Source: a virus
IMG/VR virus record: IMGVR_UViG_3300035180_002584
Span: 1-20,210 of that record
Strand: one strand, 5' to 3'
Length of the DNA: 20,210 nucleotides
Position 1 is the stretch's first letter. Each line of letters begins with the position of its first letter. Shown one piece after another: positions 1,731 to 18,453 of this stretch. Below the pieces are notes generated by a model. That model was not told where the DNA came from. It did not search any database and was given only the letters and a program-made list of their open reading frames with translations. The translations under genes were made by a program, and so were the position numbers.

Positions 1731-2645
1731 ATGGCCCGCACTAAGCACCGCAAGGACCACACCAAGGCCCTCGCCCACCGACGCCTCATGCAGGCCCTGG
1801 AGCGCCAGGAGCTGCCGCCCCACCCCGTCAAGGTCGGGAAGAACAAGTTCAAGGTCCTCGGCGACGGCCCGGGCAAGCCCACGACCCCCGAGGAGATCGC
1901 GGCCTTGCCGGAGATCCAGATCAACGGCACCTCGGGCCCTACCGCCCCTGGGGATGTCGTGTTCGTCCACGGCGCCGATGGCAGGCCCTTCTACGCCCGC
2001 GTCGGGGCCTCCAAGGAAATCCGGGGCAGGACCTCGAACTTCCTGGCCATCGACGACGCCTCTAACTACCCCAAGGCGTTCGTGGACGGTCAGGAGGTCC
2101 CCTCGAAGCCCACCGCCACGGGGCGCGTGATTCTCGACGAGGCCCCACCCAAGGGCTCCACGGTCGTGCTCAACACGGAAATCGACTACAAGCAGCTTGA
2201 GGAGCGCGTTGCCGCCCAGCTTTGCCTCCCCTTAGAGGCCCTTCAGGGCCGCCTGGAGGGTATGTCTATCACCCCCGAGCAGGAACGAAGTATCCGAGAG
2301 GGGAAGTTCGGGCGCTACTACTCCATGGGGTGCTCAACCTCAGAGGCCACCTGCTCAATCTGCGGAAAAACGGCGGCGGACGGGTGCGAGCATCTGGTTC
2401 GAGAGATCCAGGGCCTGGACCCCGCCCCCCTGCCGGGTATCTGCGGCCCCTTTGAAGGCACCGCCCGACTGGTTGCCCTCACCCCAAGGGCCAAAGACTT
2501 TCAAGAGAGCTGCGAGGCCCAGGGGGTCACCGCCAGGGCCCACCTGGAGCTGGGTTGGCACCGTGACGCCGATGGCAAGCCCGTCTTCGACGAGATCAGC
2601 CTCTGCCCAGGACCTGACCCCAACGGCCTCACCGACCTCAAATAG
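1731..2645 (+). CDS. Zinc-finger protein with SMGC/CSICG motif, possibly virion-related
   Basis: The 304-residue product starts at ATG 1731 with AGGAGCC at 1721-1727. The N terminus is basic (MARTKHRKDHTKALAHRR). Residues 198-221 hold YSMGC, then CSICGKTAADGCEH, giving ligands C208, C211, C219 and H221. A motif of this form, SMG...C.iCG......C.H, recurs in phage proteins I associate with head assembly or prohead-protease neighbourhoods, so a structural or maturation role is possible, but the rest of the protein does not let me decide. Residues 144-170 (TVVLNTEIDYKQLEERVAAQ) suggest a strand followed by a helix. The end is Pro/Gly-rich. The next gene, also a zinc-finger protein, follows after 48 bases with its own GGAGGT site. 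Confidence 0.8.
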   Translation: MARTKHRKDHTKALAHRRLMQALERQELPPHPVKVGKNKFKVLGDGPGKPTTPEEIAALPEIQINGTSGPTAPGDVVFVHGADGRPFYARVGASKEIRGRTSNFLAIDDASNYPKAFVDGQEVPSKPTATGRVILDEAPPKGSTVVLNTEIDYKQLEERVAAQLCLPLEALQGRLEGMSITPEQERSIREGKFGRYYSMGCSTSEATCSICGKTAADGCEHLVREIQGLDPAPLPGICGPFEGTARLVALTPRAKDFQESCEAQGVTARAHLELGWHRDADGKPVFDEISLCPGPDPNGLTDLK

Positions 2646-3672: not shown

Positions 3673-3712
3673 TCCCCCACTCGCTACCCGATGCAGGGTA
3701 AAGAGTGGGGGA
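3673..3712 (+). promoter_or_regulatory. Nested hairpin covering the ribosome-binding site of the hemerythrin-like gene
   Basis: The outer stem pairs TCCCCCACTC (3673-3682) with GAGTGGGGGA (3703-3712), 10 base pairs with no mismatch. Inside it TACCC (3685-3689) pairs with GGGTA (3696-3700) around the loop GATGCA. The 3' outer arm contains GGGGGA (3707-3712), the only ribosome-binding candidate for ATG 3720. The folded form should therefore hide that site. There is no T-run after the hairpin, so it is not a standard intrinsic terminator, though a weak terminator for the 2694 gene cannot be excluded. Confidence 0.6.
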
Positions 3713-3719
3713 TCAGCTT

Positions 3720-4118
3720 ATGGGGGAGAACAAGGTGTGGACGGGGCACCTGGAGCTGGACGATCAGCACCTCATGCTGATCCAGTGCTTCAACATGGTG
3801 AAGCTCGGCATCGCCGGGAAGGAAGACCTGGACGTGGCCGTCTCCCTACTGCGGGACACCCTGGAGTTCCACCTAAACGCCGAGGGCTGGGTCCTCTGGA
3901 AGGTCCTGACCCCTGAGAAGGCCACCGCCCACCAAGCCATCCACGACGCTGCCACCAAAGTCATCCGGGAATACTGGCGGACGCCCGACCCCGGTCATGA
4001 CCGGCTCCAGCAGATCCTGGAGATGGTCTACAGCCACATGCACAGCCCCGAGGAGGAGGAGATGCTCGCCCTCGCCCGCGAGGCCGTCAAAACAGGCCAG
4101 CTCCTTCGGCATACTTGA
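3720..4118 (+). CDS. Hemerythrin-like di-iron protein
   Basis: The 132-residue product has the spacing of bacterial hemerythrins: H17 (LELDDQH), H51 and E55 (FHLNAEG), H71 and H75 (HQAIHD), H106 and E111 (HMHSPE). This is a complete set of di-iron ligands, with Glu in place of the usual bridging Asp in the last motif. Trp7 near the N terminus is also typical. Family members are four-helix bundles that bind O2 reversibly and act in O2 supply, sensing or protection against NO or peroxide. Start ATG 3720 is preferred over GTG 3705, which lies inside the hairpin stem. The last 32 bases overlap the convergent gene 4087-4578. Codon use matches the neighbours. In a phage this would be an auxiliary metabolic gene, or a redox or defence modulator; the precise role is unknown. 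Confidence 0.8.
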   Translation: MGENKVWTGHLELDDQHLMLIQCFNMVKLGIAGKEDLDVAVSLLRDTLEFHLNAEGWVLWKVLTPEKATAHQAIHDAATKVIREYWRTPDPGHDRLQQILEMVYSHMHSPEEEEMLALAREAVKTGQLLRHT

Positions 4119-4578
4119 ACGCCGACACGTGGTAGTTCCGGTGGTCGATCTGCTTCGAGTCCACCAGCTCGTGCAGTTGATCACCGTCGAGCTTCAAGAT
4201 GTCCTGGCCGCTCAGCTTGTCGAAAAGCCGCAGGTGGCCGATGTTGCCATCGTTGAAAACCTCAATACCTGTTCGGTCTAGGTTCATCGGCAGGTGCTCC
4301 TGGTCGATGTTCACTTCGAGATAACCCTTCGAGGGATCCGAGAAGTGCAGGACCAGGAGGTGGCCCTTCTCGCTGATCTTCGCGGGGAAGAGCTTCCCGT
4401 CCAGGACGAGCCCGCCGGACTTGGCGTCCAGGTTGACCGCGATCTCAACGTCCTCGGCTGTGAAGTTGTCCACCCCGTGCCAGACCGCGATGCGGTGCCC
4501 CTGCTCTTCGGCGGCGAGCGCCCACTTTCGCAGCTCGGAGTTGAAGATGTCGTTGGCTTCCGCGTCGGGGAAGAGCAT
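4087..4578 (-). CDS. Hypothetical 163-residue protein
   Basis: This minus-strand gene begins at ATG 4578-4576, only 3 bases after the TAG of the upstream gene (4582-5436), with GAGG just before it, so the two are very likely one operon. Its end overlaps the hemerythrin-like gene tail to tail by 32 bases. The product starts MLFPDAEANDIFNSELRKWA, has a segment HRIAVWHGVDNFTAEDVEIA, then mostly beta-like stretches (LLVLHFSDP, YLEVNID) and a C-terminal part with LRLFDKLSGQDILKLDGDQL. There are no Cys pairs, signal peptide or membrane segments. I do not recognise the family; its operon partner looks like a virion protein, so a structural or assembly role is a reasonable guess. Confidence 0.75.
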   Translation of the reverse strand: MLFPDAEANDIFNSELRKWALAAEEQGHRIAVWHGVDNFTAEDVEIAVNLDAKSGGLVLDGKLFPAKISEKGHLLVLHFSDPSKGYLEVNIDQEHLPMNLDRTGIEVFNDGNIGHLRLFDKLSGQDILKLDGDQLHELVDSKQIDHRNYHVSAFKYAEGAGLF

Positions 4579-4581
4579 GGG

Positions 4582-5436
4582 CTACCTCAAGAACTTCATC
4601 TGACGGAGGCCGACGGAGTGCGGGCGGTTGGCCGTCAGGGGCACCATCCACTCCTTGAACTCGGAGTTGTATTGCTCGCCCAGGCCCTGGTATTTGGAGG
4701 ACTTCTCCAGGTCGAGGCTGACACCGTTCAGGCTGTAGCCGAACTCGTCGGCGATCCACCGGGCGGCCTCAGCCGTCAGGCACTTCGCGGCGGCGCCCAG
4801 GGCGCACGCCTGCCCCCAGTTGTCGTCGGGGATGTTCTCGACCGTGTAGCTGTAGAGGGCCTTGGGATTCGCGGTGTTGATCTGGGCGATGCAGAGCTTG
4901 AGGAACCGGAGGATCGTCTGATCCGTCCAGATGTAGCCCACGCGGGTCGTGTAGCCCGCCACCGTCTTGGCCGCCGTGGGGGGCCGGAAGTGGTAGTTGC
5001 GGTCGGGGTTCGTGTCGGAGAGCAGCTCCCGGACGGACATGATGAGGTCGGCGACCTTCTGGGTCGTCTGGAGTTTCTGAGCCATGAGGACCGAGGGGGC
5101 CTCCAGGGAGTTCGTCCCGGGCTTGACCGCCAGGATGGAGAAGTCTTCGATGATCTGCACTTCCGGCTCGCCCGCCGTCTGTTGGAGATACCAGACGAGC
5201 TGATACTCCCCATCGGCCCAGGAGGTCGGCAGGGTCATCGCCACGTAGTAGAGCCCCACCTCCTGGAGCATCGGCTGGAGCTTGGGCTGGGAGATCAGGG
5301 AGGTGTTGCCGTCCCTGTCCTTGGCGAAGATCGTGTAGTTCAACGAGGCGGGGACCACGGGGCTGTTCGCCGAGTCCCGGACCATCAAGCTCAGGTCCCC
5401 GGGCGCAAGCGTCTTTCCGGCAGGCAGCACAACCAT
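4582..5436 (-). CDS. Probable virion structural protein, 284 residues
   Basis: The ATG at 5436-5434 follows GAAGGGG on the minus strand. The N-terminal half (residues about 1-110) looks like an immunoglobulin-type beta domain, with SLMVRDSANSPVVPASLNYT and a segment WADGEYQLVWYLQQ, as in many phage virion proteins. The C-terminal half is helical: YIWTDQTILRFLKLCIAQIN, then WIADEFGYSLNGVSLDLEKS and SKYQGLGEQYNSEF. The motif sYslnGVSLdlekSSKYq recurs in conserved structural proteins of large contractile-tailed phages as I remember them. No enzymatic motif is visible. It is the only likely virion gene on the minus strand here and is coupled to the unknown gene 4087-4578. The exact virion location is not determinable. 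Confidence 0.75.
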   Translation of the reverse strand: MVVLPAGKTLAPGDLSLMVRDSANSPVVPASLNYTIFAKDRDGNTSLISQPKLQPMLQEVGLYYVAMTLPTSWADGEYQLVWYLQQTAGEPEVQIIEDFSILAVKPGTNSLEAPSVLMAQKLQTTQKVADLIMSVRELLSDTNPDRNYHFRPPTAAKTVAGYTTRVGYIWTDQTILRFLKLCIAQINTANPKALYSYTVENIPDDNWGQACALGAAAKCLTAEAARWIADEFGYSLNGVSLDLEKSSKYQGLGEQYNSEFKEWMVPLTANRPHSVGLRQMKFLR

Positions 5437-5481: not shown

Positions 5482-5624
5482 TCCGCCTGCACCATCCGCG
5501 CACAGAACTCCACCCAAGGCATCCCGTAGACCACGTAGCCCCTGTCCTTCATACGCGAGGTGGACACCCGGGTGAGGCTGGAGCTGGTGGCGCGAAGGTG
5601 TTCATTCCACCGCCTGGGGGTCAC
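5478..5624 (-). CDS. 48-residue protein, possibly the C-terminal remnant of a larger gene
   Basis: GTG 5624-5622 overlaps the TGA of the GIY-YIG gene as GTGA, and the G-run just upstream could serve as its ribosome-binding site. The product starts VTPRRWNEHLRATSSSLTRV and continues with MKDRGYVVYGMPWVEFC, a composition like an ordinary globular protein, not random sequence. It has no recognisable start region of its own and looks like the end of a longer protein whose 5' part was removed or displaced where the endonuclease gene and C/G homopolymer now lie. No matching upstream half was found in the window. An internal ATG (codon 25) could give an even shorter product. Confidence 0.5.
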   Translation of the reverse strand: MTPRRWNEHLRATSSSLTRVSTSRMKDRGYVVYGMPWVEFCARMVQAE

Positions 5625-6268
5625 AACCCCCCCCCCCCCCCCCTGGTCTTCAAGAGGAGCGCCCAGGTTGCCCGCGCCTGTTGAAACTCCTGTGCAAGGC
5701 GGGCCTCCCCTCGCTCTCTGGCCAGCCGGAGCGTGTTACCCCGTTGTTCTTCCGCAAAGCCCGCATAGCGAACATCCCCGTAACGAATCCGGCTGGCACT
5801 CACAGCCTTCCGCGTTGCCTCGGAGCGCACCAGACCTTGGTTGGAGTCCGCGATTTTCTTTCGTGTTTCCTCACCCCGGGGCTTTCCGTGGTTGGGGTTC
5901 AGGGCCCCCTTCTTGGCGTCGGCTATCCGACGCCGGTGTTCTTCCGAGAAGGCCGGACGCTTGAGACCAAGACAGCTCTCGGCCTTGGGGCGCATGTTGT
6001 AACCGGCCACATAGGCGTTTAGATTGTCGATCCACCACTGTTCCCGGGCGACGAGGGTATCATTAAGGTGGGGAAGCTCCTCTAGGACTTCGAGAACGAA
6101 CTGGTTCTCACCCCACTTGGCCCAGGATGCTTGTAGCTTGGCAGAGTGGTGGTCTCCCCGGTTCAACCGTCGTCTATGTGTTCTCCAACGCTCTTCGATC
6201 TCAACGCTTGAACCTACATGCACTTTCTTGGTTTGTAGGTTATGAATCTGGTAGACCCCACACGTCAT
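5621..6268 (-). CDS. GIY-YIG homing-type endonuclease with NUMOD3-like repeats
   Basis: The 215-residue product opens with GVYQIHNLQTKKVHVGSS, the GIY-YIG core in which the second motif reads HVG instead of YIG. Other core residues are present: Y6, R27, H31, E76 and N91, almost at I-TevI numbering. Residues about 107-145 carry two NUMOD3-type DNA-binding elements (FSEEHRRRIADAKKG, GEETRKKIADSNQG). Such enzymes nick or cut DNA to spread their own gene. ATG 6268-6266 is preceded by AGGAGA. The end is odd: the last residues are KTRGGGGGL, encoded by a 17-base G run, so the natural C terminus may differ. Base composition is less GC-rich than the flanks, consistent with transfer. Its gene start faces the helicase gene across 38 bases. 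Confidence 0.85.
   Translation of the reverse strand: MTCGVYQIHNLQTKKVHVGSSVEIEERWRTHRRRLNRGDHHSAKLQASWAKWGENQFVLEVLEELPHLNDTLVAREQWWIDNLNAYVAGYNMRPKAESCLGLKRPAFSEEHRRRIADAKKGALNPNHGKPRGEETRKKIADSNQGLVRSEATRKAVSASRIRYGDVRYAGFAEEQRGNTLRLARERGEARLAQEFQQARATWALLLKTRGGGGGL
5627..5643. repeat. 17-base C/G homopolymer
   Basis: An uninterrupted run of 17 C on the plus strand (G on the minus strand) lies at the very end of the GIY-YIG gene, and encodes its Gly tail. No other homopolymer in the window approaches this length. It could be a slippage-prone tract, or a sequencing or assembly artefact at a junction. Confidence 0.9.
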
Positions 6269-14054: not shown

Positions 14055-17000
14055 ATGCCGCTCTTTACCCAATACACGAAGCCTGGGGTTTACACCTCGG
14101 TCATCTACGAGGAAGGCGGCGTCAGCCTCTTCGGAGATGCCCGGATTCCGGTCCTCATCGGCGAGGGACAGGAGACCAAGAAGCTCCTGAACCAGGAGAT
14201 CCACCGTGGCTCCTCGTCCTCCTCGGACGAACAGCGGGTGCTGGAGAACCTCTCCCACCAGATCACCGGGACGGGTCGCTCCTACCAGTTGACCTACGCT
14301 CCCGTCGTCAGCGGCAACGGCCAGGGCGTGGTCACCAATCTCCCCTCGGCCATCGAAGCCTACACGACCGACCCCCAGGGCAACCCGATCCCCCTGCGGA
14401 TCACGAGCCTGGACGGCGCGACCGGCAAGTTCATGACCCAGGACATCCTCCCCGCCGAGGCTGAGCTGAAGGTCTCCTACTTCTTCAAGCGGATGGATCA
14501 GCAGGTCGTCGCCGAGGACCTGTCCTTCCAGATCCCCGCCCACGCCACCTTCACCGCCCAGACCGGCATGGTCATCGGCACCACCCTGCCCGGCACCGTC
14601 GGCAACGGCGTGAAGCTCGCCTTCACCCTGGCTGGCACCTCGGCTGGCGTCTCCGATGCCCTGGCTGTGACCGGCGCGGGCACCAACCTGATCAGCATCG
14701 AGCTGCGGAAGACCGACAACACGGTCCGCACCCTCGACATGATCAAGTCCCTGATCGAGGCTGGCATCGCCACCAAGACGGCGGGCTTCCTCACCGTGAT
14801 CAGCCTCGTCGATGCGAACAAGGACAACGCTGCGGTCGCCGTGGCCTCCACCTTCTTCGCCAACGGCCAGGGCCAGAACACTGCCAAGACCTTCAAGGTC
14901 AAGAACACGCCCATCGTGGACGGTTCCAACGGCGGCGTGGTCCTGAACCTCCCCTCGAACCTCAACTTCGAGGTCAAGGTCAACGGCGCCAAGGTGCCCG
15001 TGGCCTCCATGGACGGCTACCACGGCCTCTTCACCCTCGCCGACGAGGTGAAGTTCGGCGACACCCTCACCGTCTCCTACTACTACAACACCTACCAGGA
15101 CACCTACGACGAGCTGCCCGCCGAGAACGTGGTGGACATCCTCGCCGCCGGTTACGCCCCTGGCCGCCAGGACTTCATCAACACCGTGGACTATGTCCTC
15201 GTGGACAACAAGATCCACTGGGGCAACGTCGCCCAGACCGTCACCGGCAAACACACCCCCGGCTACGTCCCCTTCGACGCCTCCGTGGTCACCACCACCC
15301 TCTGGGACGAGAAGGTCTACCTCCGCCCCTGCGTCGGCCAGACCGATGGCGTGAACGTCGCCTTCACCCTGGAAGACGTGCCGACCGACGGCTCCCTGCT
15401 GAGCCACGCCACCGACAACCCCGACCTCATCCGCGTCTACGTCGGCAACAGCCCCGTCGATGCGATGATCATGGGCCCCGTGCGCGTGATCCGCCTGGAC
15501 GGTAAGACCAAGGGCTTCACGCTCTACAACCCCCCAGCGGCCAACAAGGTCGTCTACGCCACCTACTGGCGCAACATCCTGAACGACCACTCCTTCACCC
15601 TCGAAGTCGCCACCGCTGGTCCCACGGGCCAGGGCGACTACAAGATGAAGGACGAGATGGGCAACACCGTGCCCGTCGTGAAGGAAGGCCACCACAACGT
15701 GCTGGAGGCCGACTTCAACATCACGAAGATCGTCTGGCCCTTCGCCTTCCCCGATCTCCGTGGCGTGGCCGGGCAGACCCCCGACGAGACCATCACCCTG
15801 ACCTTCCAGGATGACGGCCTGACCATCGACGCCGTCCCCGCCATCCAGGCCACCACCCTGACCGCTCAGGTGGGCCTCCAGTTCCGGTCCTTCCTGTCCG
15901 GCGCGGCCCCCAACACCGTCACCACGGTGAAGATGGCCAGCGGCACCCCCGGCCCCGACGCCTCCGCCGTCTCCAAGGTCGGTGAGGTCGTGACCGTGAA
16001 CATCAACCGGGAAGATCCTGCCAACCCTGCCACGCCTCACCCGACCAACCCCACCCGCAGCCTGGGCGACATCATCTCCCTGTTCTCCAACGGCGTCGTC
16101 ACGACCCCGCTGACCGGCCACATCATCGCTGAACTGGCCACCCCCAGCACCGACCCGAACATCCTCTGCGTCGCCACCCCCGCCATCCCCACCTCCAACG
16201 GCAAGTTCTCCGGCGGGGCCGCTGCGGTTTCCCAGCCCTACTCCAACCGCTTCAAGGTCTCCTCCAGCCGCACCGCTGGCGATGCCGCTGCCGACGGCCT
16301 TGGCCGCACCGGTGGTGCCACCACGGATCCCCTGGCGGTCCCAACCTTCCAGGCCCTGAACGCCGGTGACACCCCCGGCACCTCCGGCTGGCTGGGCCAG
16401 ACCTACATGGACGTGGACACCGGCGTGACCTTCACCATCGTGGATCCCAACGCCGCGCTGGACTACGGTTACACCGAGCTGCCCTCCCCCGGCTACTACT
16501 TCCGGCCCAATGACAAGCTGGTCTTTACCGCCTCGAACGTCGAGGCCCACAAGACCTCCGTGCTGCCCCAGCTTGGCATCTATGGCGTCCGCACCCAGGT
16601 GACCACCACCTACGGCATGAACGTCGGTGACACCCTGCTGATCAACACCTACAACAAGTCCGGCAACGAGCCCAAGATCGGCGAATACTACTACGTCAAT
16701 CTCCTGCTGGGCAAGGCGGACAAGGACTTCCAGCTCCCCCGCTACTACACCAACCTCAGCGACATATACGCCGAGTTCGGTGACCCCACCCCCGAGAACC
16801 GCCTGAGCCTCGGCGCCAAGCTGATGTTCCAGAACGGTGCCTCGACCATCACCATGAAGCAGGTCAAGAAGGAGACCGGTCTCGAAACCGCCTCCGACCA
16901 GACCTACATGGACGCCATCGCGGACCTCGCGCTGCCCCTGCCCGGCTCCGACCGGAAGTGCGACGTGATCATTCCGATGACGACCAGCCCCGTGGTCATC

Positions 17001-17729
17001 CAGTTCCTGGCCAAGCACCTGAACACCCAGGCCAGCCCCCGTATGCGTGGTGAGGCCATCGGCTTCGCTGGCTGCCCGATGTATGCCACGCCCGAGAGCA
17101 CCCGCTCCCTGGCCCGCTCCATCAGCAGCGAGCGCCTGATCCTCCTCTACCCCGGCGGCGCGATCCTCTCCGTGGACATCAACAACATCTCCACTGAGTT
17201 CGCCGTGGATGGCAGCTTCCTCGCCGCCGCGATGGCCGGTCTCTACCTGAACCCCAGCAACGACGTGGCCACTACCCTCACCCGTCAGAAGCTCGTGGGC
17301 TTCAGCCGCCTCGTCCGCCGCACCGCCGAGCCCATCCTCGACCTGTGCGCCTCCGATGGCGTCTGCATCCTCATCGAGCGCGACGGTGCCTTCGAGGTGC
17401 GGCACTACATGACCACCAGCACCGACAACATCCTCAAGCGGGAACCCACCACGACCACCATCGTGGACTACACCCGCCAGCGGATGCGCCGGGCCCTGGA
17501 GCAGTTCATCGGTCGCAAGTCCGTCCAGGCCGTGGTGACCGACATCTCCGTCACCGCCCACAGCCTGCTCCGGGCCCTGGTCGAGCAGGAGATCCTGGAG
17601 AGCTACCGCTCTCTGGAGGTCACCCGCGACGCCGCCGATCCCACGGTGGTCCACCTGAGTGTCGCCATCAAGCCCATCTTCAGCGTCCTGTGGGTGGACG
17701 TGACCTTCCGCGTTTCCGTAAAAGGTTAA
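14055..17729 (+). CDS. Very large contractile tail sheath protein
   Basis: ATG 14055 has AAGGGGG about 7 bases upstream. The N terminus reads FTQYTKPGVYTSVIYEEG, the PGVY start typical of sheath subunits. The C-terminal third contains FQLPRYYTNLSDIYAEFGDP (about 890-915) and later IERDGAFEVRHYMTTST and RRALEQFIGRKS, as in the sheath C-terminal domain that joins neighbouring subunits. At 1,224 residues it is about twice the usual size. The extra length lies in the middle and includes at least two similar beta domains 200 residues apart (residues 80-150 and 280-350) and a weaker third (425-510). Sheath subunits form the outer tube that contracts to drive the inner tube through the host envelope. 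Codons are extremely C-ending, consistent with high expression; a strong terminator follows. Confidence 0.9.
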   Translation: MPLFTQYTKPGVYTSVIYEEGGVSLFGDARIPVLIGEGQETKKLLNQEIHRGSSSSSDEQRVLENLSHQITGTGRSYQLTYAPVVSGNGQGVVTNLPSAIEAYTTDPQGNPIPLRITSLDGATGKFMTQDILPAEAELKVSYFFKRMDQQVVAEDLSFQIPAHATFTAQTGMVIGTTLPGTVGNGVKLAFTLAGTSAGVSDALAVTGAGTNLISIELRKTDNTVRTLDMIKSLIEAGIATKTAGFLTVISLVDANKDNAAVAVASTFFANGQGQNTAKTFKVKNTPIVDGSNGGVVLNLPSNLNFEVKVNGAKVPVASMDGYHGLFTLADEVKFGDTLTVSYYYNTYQDTYDELPAENVVDILAAGYAPGRQDFINTVDYVLVDNKIHWGNVAQTVTGKHTPGYVPFDASVVTTTLWDEKVYLRPCVGQTDGVNVAFTLEDVPTDGSLLSHATDNPDLIRVYVGNSPVDAMIMGPVRVIRLDGKTKGFTLYNPPAANKVVYATYWRNILNDHSFTLEVATAGPTGQGDYKMKDEMGNTVPVVKEGHHNVLEADFNITKIVWPFAFPDLRGVAGQTPDETITLTFQDDGLTIDAVPAIQATTLTAQVGLQFRSFLSGAAPNTVTTVKMASGTPGPDASAVSKVGEVVTVNINREDPANPATPHPTNPTRSLGDIISLFSNGVVTTPLTGHIIAELATPSTDPNILCVATPAIPTSNGKFSGGAAAVSQPYSNRFKVSSSRTAGDAAADGLGRTGGATTDPLAVPTFQALNAGDTPGTSGWLGQTYMDVDTGVTFTIVDPNAALDYGYTELPSPGYYFRPNDKLVFTASNVEAHKTSVLPQLGIYGVRTQVTTTYGMNVGDTLLINTYNKSGNEPKIGEYYYVNLLLGKADKDFQLPRYYTNLSDIYAEFGDPTPENRLSLGAKLMFQNGASTITMKQVKKETGLETASDQTYMDAIADLALPLPGSDRKCDVIIPMTTSPVVIQFLAKHLNTQASPRMRGEAIGFAGCPMYATPESTRSLARSISSERLILLYPGGAILSVDINNISTEFAVDGSFLAAAMAGLYLNPSNDVATTLTRQKLVGFSRLVRRTAEPILDLCASDGVCILIERDGAFEVRHYMTTSTDNILKREPTTTTIVDYTRQRMRRALEQFIGRKSVQAVVTDISVTAHSLLRALVEQEILESYRSLEVTRDAADPTVVHLSVAIKPIFSVLWVDVTFRVSVKG

Positions 17730-17736
17730 AACAACC

Positions 17737-17775
17737 GACTTAGGGTGATCTTCGGGTCACCCTAAGTCCCTTTTT
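17737..17775 (+). terminator. Intrinsic terminator after the sheath gene
   Basis: GACTTAGGGTGA (17737-17748) pairs perfectly with TCACCCTAAGTC (17757-17768). The loop TCTTCGGG can extend the stem by a T-G wobble and a C-G pair closing a UUCG tetraloop, giving about 14 pairs. Two C and five T follow (17769-17775). This is a textbook intrinsic terminator, starting 7 bases after the sheath stop. Confidence 0.9.
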
Positions 17776-17784
17776 GGGGCACAC

Positions 17785-18453
17785 GTGCACGGCTTCATCT
17801 ACCTGATCTCGAACAGCGCGTCCGACAAGGTTTACGTCGGGCAGACGGTTCGTGCTCAGGTAGAGCGTCGCTGGTATGAGCACCGCTGGGCCCTGATAAA
17901 TGGGCGCGGCACCAACCGGCACCTTCAGATCGCCTGGGCGCACCACGGTCAGGATGCCTTCGTCTTCTCAGAGCTGGAACGGGTTGAGGCTGTGACCTCT
18001 GCTGAACTCAAGGCCCTCCTGACCGCCCGTGAGGGTTACTGGATGGCTGAGATGCGCGGTCAGGGCAAGACCCTCTACAACGCACAGGCCGCCGGGGACT
18101 CGATGGCTTACCTCCGCAGAGGACAGCCTTCCCCCAAGAAGGGTGTCCCGATGTCCGAGGATCAGCGTCTGAAGGTCGTTGCCTCACTCAAGGGCAACAC
18201 CCGCCGCAAGGGGATTCCCACCTCTGACCAAGGTCGCGCCAACATCGCCGCCTCCAAACGAGGTAAACCCTCCCCTAACAAGGGCACCACGATGTCTGCC
18301 GAGCAGCGCAAGAAGCTCTCTCAAGCCCATATCGGCGTCAAGCTGTCGGACGAACACAGGGCTGCATTGAAGGCGGCCTCCCAGGGCCGGTCCTGGATCC
18401 TCGTCAACGGACTCCGTGTGTATTCCAGGCCCGGTATTGAAGGAGCCCTCTGA
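17785..18453 (+). CDS. GIY-YIG homing-type endonuclease with NUMOD3-like repeats
   Basis: The 222-residue product opens with GFIYLISNSASDKVYVGQT, the GIY-YIG core (FIY at 4-6, YVG at 17-19). R29, E83 (AREGYW) and N99 fit the catalytic and structural residues. The C-terminal half has NUMOD3-type DNA-binding elements with alternating Lys/Gly-Pro spacers: SPKKGVPMSEDQRLKVVASL, KRGKPSPNKGTTMSAEQRKK and LSDEHRAALKAAS. The start is GTG 17785, immediately behind the sheath terminator, with GGGG (17776-17779) as a weak site. Its stop TGA overlaps the next ATG (TGATG), and the next gene's ribosome-binding site lies inside its 3' end. It is therefore a mobile gene placed cleanly between two virion genes. 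It differs in sequence from the minus-strand GIY-YIG gene at 5621-6268. Confidence 0.9.
   Translation: MHGFIYLISNSASDKVYVGQTVRAQVERRWYEHRWALINGRGTNRHLQIAWAHHGQDAFVFSELERVEAVTSAELKALLTAREGYWMAEMRGQGKTLYNAQAAGDSMAYLRRGQPSPKKGVPMSEDQRLKVVASLKGNTRRKGIPTSDQGRANIAASKRGKPSPNKGTTMSAEQRKKLSQAHIGVKLSDEHRAALKAASQGRSWILVNGLRVYSRPGIEGAL

Follow-up and report, generated by a model that had tools for sequence, protein, structure and literature searches.

A hemerythrin-like gene in a jumbo myophage fragment related to Tunturiibacter phage Tunturi_5

Background

Hemerythrins are oxygen-binding iron proteins of bacteria and worms. The family has also been met as cargo of mobile DNA: hemerythrin HHE proteins (arCOG01471) have been tabulated in thaumarchaeal integrated mobile elements (PMC6563490). 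Two members from Campylobacter, HerA and HerB, protect Fe-S enzymes from oxygen (PMC4257069). We found no published phage hemerythrin in the open-licence literature, in agreement with a preliminary description of the DNA analysed here, whose author knew of no described function for such genes in phages. The present gene lies in a relative of Tunturi_5, a 309-kb myophage of Tunturiibacter (Acidobacteriota), an aerobic host (PMC11924767).

Results and Discussion

Phage context

The window, by which we mean the whole stretch of DNA analysed, comprises the 20,210 bases of an IMG/VR record. Tunturi_5 has homologues of seven of its ORFs (29-55% identity), with the tail genes in conserved order (Table 1); judged by this sequence comparison, the window is part of the genome of a jumbo myophage akin to Tunturi_5. 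The phage origin assumed in the preliminary description is borne out by the tail sheath and other virion genes that the contig carries in synteny with Tunturi_5. The hosts of the carrier phage are probably soil bacteria of the Acidobacteriota. The micro-aerobic host that had been suggested finds no support: the nearest cultured relative infects aerobic Tunturiibacter (PMC11924767) and lacks the gene, there being no hemerythrin gene anywhere in the complete Tunturi_5 genome.

Two structural genes deserve comment in their own right. The sheath is unusually long (1224 amino acids) and the PHROG sheath family matches it only over residues 882-1223, so that some 880 N-terminal residues have counterparts only in phages of the Tunturi_5 type and in more distant kin of these. 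Compared with Tunturi_5, the gp319 homologue points the opposite way relative to the tail genes, and it adjoins a homing endonuclease, which suggests a rearrangement.

Table 1. Features of the window and their positions
Feature	Coordinates	Strand	Description
ORF	1731-2645		Short weak match to the Tunturi_5 gp331 region (head maturation protease) and also to phrog_18299, which bears that label too
RNA hairpin	3673-3712	+	Inverted repeat; 7 nt separate it from the start codon
Hemerythrin-like ORF	3720-4118	+	132 aa; ATG at 3720, stop codon 4116-4118
Ligand codons of the hemerythrin-like ORF	3768, 3870, 3882, 3930, 3942, 4035, 4050		H17, H51, E55, H71, H75, H106 and E111, respectively
Tunturi_5 gp319 homologue	4582-5436	-	Annotated head-tail connector protein; 55% identity
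GIY-YIG homing endonuclease-like ORF	5621-6268	-	Group I intron endonuclease family; codon use unlike that of the structural genes
Tail sheath	14055-17729	+	Full-length homologue of Tunturi_5 gp326, 44-46% identity
Terminator-like hairpin	17730-17775		Strong, with T run; directly after the sheath gene
GIY-YIG homing endonuclease-like ORF	17785-18453	+	Group I intron endonuclease family; directly after the sheath; codon use unlike that of the structural genes

The hemerythrin-like gene and its upstream hairpin

The preliminary description had placed the ORF and its seven named residues correctly, and the phage-like codon use it reported is seen here as a GC3 of 0.87 and a codon-preference score of 0.61, inside the range of 0.53-0.85 spanned by the structural phage genes. 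Overlapping spurious frames score below 0 and the two GIY-YIG endonucleases -0.25 and 0.24. The ORF is a genuine coding gene resident in the phage, and the earlier view that it is domesticated there is supported by its codon use, from which we judge the residence to have been long. It is the last in a series of rightward genes, and 32 of its bases coincide with the 3' end of a leftward ORF (4087-4578).

Hairpins block translation of some T4 late genes. The segment upstream of the hemerythrin-like start codon contains an inverted repeat, and the 91 nt from 3655 to 3745 fold with a minimum free energy of -36.1 kcal/mol (z -3.4); the only Shine-Dalgarno-like stretch (about 3707-3712) sits in the 3' arm of the hairpin. 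Rfam gave no match for it. Among the seven other phage hemerythrin genes described below, two likewise have an exceptionally stable 5' region (z about -3), one in G435 (L189) and one in G465 (L281). The hairpin is a possible element of translational control, or possibly a terminator of the upstream transcript.

Homology to hemerythrins

The window protein scores under every curated hemerythrin cut-off: the NCBIfam hemerythrin domain TIGR02481 matches it at E=1.1e-6 with 28.8 bits (cut-off 51.75) and NF033749 at E 3.3e-4 with 20.8 bits (cut-off 84), while Pfam PF01814 (Hemerythrin HHE), which the sister phage proteins pass, gives no match at E 0.1. Two other matches, to the Acb2/Tad1 hairpin family of Pfam (E 0.11) and to phrog_38421 (E 0.0087), were weak and were set aside. 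Its identity to the sampled hemerythrin relatives is at most 25%, and close relatives were found neither by tblastn among phages and plasmids nor by pattern scans of viral and genome contigs. BLAST with the window protein misses the sister phage genes too, so that profiles are required. A profile built from bacterial and other phage hemerythrins, with the window protein left out, gives it 27.4 bits, against 10.3 for the best of about 24,000 decoys (6,000 shuffles and some 18,000 phage ORFs); a profile of 47 bacterial hemerythrins alone gives 18.4 bits against a best decoy of 8.0.

That the protein is not a hemerythrin at all, being some other four-helix protein with histidines placed by chance, would accord with the sub-threshold database scores, the silence of Pfam and an uninformative single-sequence structure prediction; we consider it the least probable of the readings, since two profiles not trained on the protein lift it far above the decoys and the seven ligand positions lie in register. 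The hemerythrin-like identity given in the preliminary description thus holds in both profile tests, and the predicted fold agrees. We conclude that the window protein is remotely homologous to hemerythrins and probably functions as they do. Given the curated scores and the Glu in place of the terminal Asp, it is not to be filed as a bacteriohemerythrin.

Support is uneven along the chain. The profile matches span residues 5-95 at most and therefore support only H17, H51, E55, H71 and H75, while H106 and E111, outside the local match, are placed by multiple alignment (MAFFT) and by the structure model. The di-iron ligand set first proposed accordingly stands in part: all seven residues can be assigned, the first five firmly and the last two with less certainty.

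Predicted structure

A structure prediction, proposed earlier as a check, yields a model with the four-helix hemerythrin fold. AlphaFold2, supplied with a 44-row alignment (A7), returned a pLDDT of 88.2 and a pTM of 0.78, with helices at residues 11-31, 37-62, 65-87, 92-107 and 110-124; since A7 itself includes hemerythrins, the model is only partly independent evidence, and prediction from the single sequence gave a pLDDT of 44. The best PDB matches of the model are DcrH-Hr (2avk, Z 14.1), a bacterial hemerythrin (4xpx, 13.5) and myohemerythrin (13.2); hemerythrins fill ranks 1-15 (Z 14.1-11.0) and unrelated bundles score about 10. Foldseek produced the same ranking with weak E-values (best 0.098). 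No YtfE/RIC entry is among the best 50 PDB matches listed for the model, and membership of that family is possible.

Hemerythrins of other phages

The survey of phage genomes that the preliminary description had called for turned up five more genes in the clade and three in unrelated contigs. Related contigs were collected by scans with the sheath and gp319 alignments, and the 98 other records were searched whole. Hemerythrin genes are present in four of them: G408 and G409, whose 131-aa proteins read identically and which probably represent one population, and G435 and G465, with two genes each. These amount to five further divergent hemerythrin genes of the Tunturi_5-like clade, in three more phage lineages; most of the related records are fragments, so that absence of the gene from a record is weak evidence. 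Three more genes lie on two unrelated large viral contigs having no detectable sheath relative: one on G004 (307 kb), where the gene has a PhoH-like ORF beside it and a tail-fibre ORF close by, and two on G001 (111 kb), which also carries QueC-like and other phage-family ORFs. When 50,697 annotated phage records were searched by tblastn with a consensus hemerythrin, matches came only from apparently mislabelled host contigs. Two consensus hemerythrins (A1, A2) were the first queries and were employed solely to retrieve real sequences and to search the phage collection. Matches of an McHr type in 'Acinetobacter phage MD-2021a' (CAKLQH020000030.1) were rejected as phage evidence, their neighbours (pilT, fur, algC, argB) looking chromosomal; the records under that name appear to be bacterial chromosome mislabelled in a phage collection.

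No shared neighbour genes that would point to a pathway were found around the phage hemerythrins. In the sister phages the genes sit among non-structural ORFs, and this bears on whether the window protein could belong to the virion, as a helical protein that binds iron and is packaged inside the particle or on its surface. Its gene lies on the same contig as the tail sheath, about 10 kb upstream, as such a role might lead one to expect; the location of the sister genes, the sparse occurrence in the clade and the lack of a Tunturi_5 counterpart all speak against it, and we regard it as very improbable. Naming ORFs by eye, we noted in G435 (L199:18626-19912) that the second hemerythrin gene adjoins two ORFs, one resembling an HNH endonuclease and the other a GMP reductase/IMPDH, the latter seeming to start with an intein-like sequence.

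Conservation of the metal site

Across the nine phage proteins pairwise identity is mostly 13-27% (35% in one pair), and the invariant columns are exactly H17, H51, E55, H71 and H75. Eight of the nine retain H106, the exception being the protein of G004 (L007:7983-8414), which has Gly for the His of the HIxxxD motif with its other ligands intact; the terminal carboxylate is likewise Asp in eight, only the window protein having Glu. Invariance confined to the five firm ligands in proteins otherwise so divergent speaks for selection on the di-iron site and not on the fold alone, and this comparison of sequences argues, more strongly than any other evidence we have, for a di-iron site that is used.

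The window protein has its own peculiarities. Glu for the usual final Asp, as the preliminary description had it, is a true departure, Asp being present in 47 of 47 sampled bacterial hemerythrins, and the Glu occurs in the window protein alone among these and the nine phage proteins. A second change, absent from that description, affects the HFxxEE motif: Gly56 stands where the motif has its second Glu, a position filled by Glu in 46 of the 47 sampled bacterial relatives and by Gln in one. As neither Asp to Glu nor EE to EG is found in the 47 bacterial relatives, the chemistry of the site may differ from O2 carriage.

These same changes could be taken to mean that the hemerythrin fold has been repurposed as a binding or regulatory protein, for host takeover or counter-defence, its metal site weakened or unused. 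The window protein is, moreover, the most diverged of the nine (end branch 7.05). All four phage-invariant His and Glu55 are nevertheless kept, as are H106 and a terminal carboxylate, and these intact ligands count against repurposing, since drift after loss of the metal should strike them first; we think this reading improbable. The tree pairs the window protein with an Acidobacteriota protein (SH-aLRT 90, on too few columns and with long branches); that protein had been retrieved by its similarity to the window protein, for which reason we draw no conclusion of host origin.

Proposed role

Our best explanation, to which we give about an even chance, is that the gene encodes a di-iron accessory protein of hemerythrin fold, most likely binding or buffering O2 and/or NO during infection. 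Homology, predicted fold, ligand conservation, residence in the phage and recurrence in the clade are computed results. The product would be a small, soluble, single-domain protein with two irons held between four helices by His 17, 51, 71, 75 and 106 and by Glu55 and Glu111 as bridging carboxylates; its gene would be accessory, of the moron type, in a jumbo phage that infects soil bacteria. Made in the infected cell and remaining in the cytoplasm, the protein would most likely capture O2 and/or NO at its pair of irons, and by buffering or scavenging these gases it would protect oxygen-labile metabolism of host or phage through a long infection. We infer the iron loading, the O2/NO chemistry and the benefit to infection, the buffering role by the precedent of Campylobacter HerA and HerB. 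The tuning of host redox state suggested in the preliminary description is likewise a proposal. We rejected the idea that the protein supplies a phage class I ribonucleotide reductase, which would be an O2-using partner, with O2 or iron: no small subunit of that enzyme is present in 21 records, many of them fragments.

The main rival to O2/NO buffering is an enzymatic or iron-donating activity, given that YtfE provides a precedent for a site with two glutamates: in the E. coli protein four His are joined by Glu133 and Glu208 as bridging carboxylates (PMC9052748, PMC9268430). A YtfE/RIC-like site of this kind might store, donate or sense iron, as in Fe-S repair or sensing, or might act as a peroxidase or an NO/nitrite enzyme, and the Glu that the window protein alone has at the last ligand would suit it. 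On the other side, the window protein has 132 residues and is without the ScdA_N domain (no Pfam match), and the sibling phage proteins retain Asp; iron handling or turnover is thus unlikely in our view, if the most serious of the alternatives to gas buffering.

Within one clade of giant soil phages such genes turn up repeatedly, some genomes having two, and the metal site has persisted through the divergence of the remaining sequence. Since related giant phages carry similar genes, such viruses may adjust the O2, NO or iron chemistry of the cells they infect. A bolder proposition, which we put forward only tentatively and consider doubtful, is that the jumbo phages of soil Acidobacteriota own a diversified di-iron gas-binding family, at times with two members to a genome, controlling O2, NO or iron, of which the window version, with its two-glutamate site, would have a different chemistry. 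If the proteins do bind O2 or NO, viruses would be using the chemistry of respiratory pigments in infection, and the cultured Tunturi_5 and its host provide a relative in which this might be tested.

Comparison with known systems

The best fold matches of the window protein are the bacteriohemerythrins (TIGR02481, NF033749; 2avk, 4xpx), with which it shares, by prediction, a single four-helix domain of about 130 residues and an alignable set of H17, H51, E55, H71, H75, H106 and a terminal carboxylate. It differs from them in a shorter C-D loop, in the change of the last ligand from Asp to Glu, in Gly56 and in being carried by a phage. As regards YtfE/RIC, Glu55 and Glu111 would by their positions fit the two bridging glutamates; RIC, however, has an N-terminal ScdA_N domain with a Cys pair, a left-handed bundle and four His, whereas the window protein is a single domain of hemerythrin-like sequence. 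The hemerythrins of the sister phages (G408/G409, G435 and G465) are likewise encoded by phages as single domains and have the same set of ligands, but are only 13-16% identical to the window protein and all retain the terminal Asp and the EE pair. The thaumarchaeal arCOG01471 proteins offer a parallel in that a hemerythrin-type gene is the cargo of a mobile element, though those elements, known here from a table entry only, are integrated in archaea, while the present gene belongs to a tailed jumbo phage.
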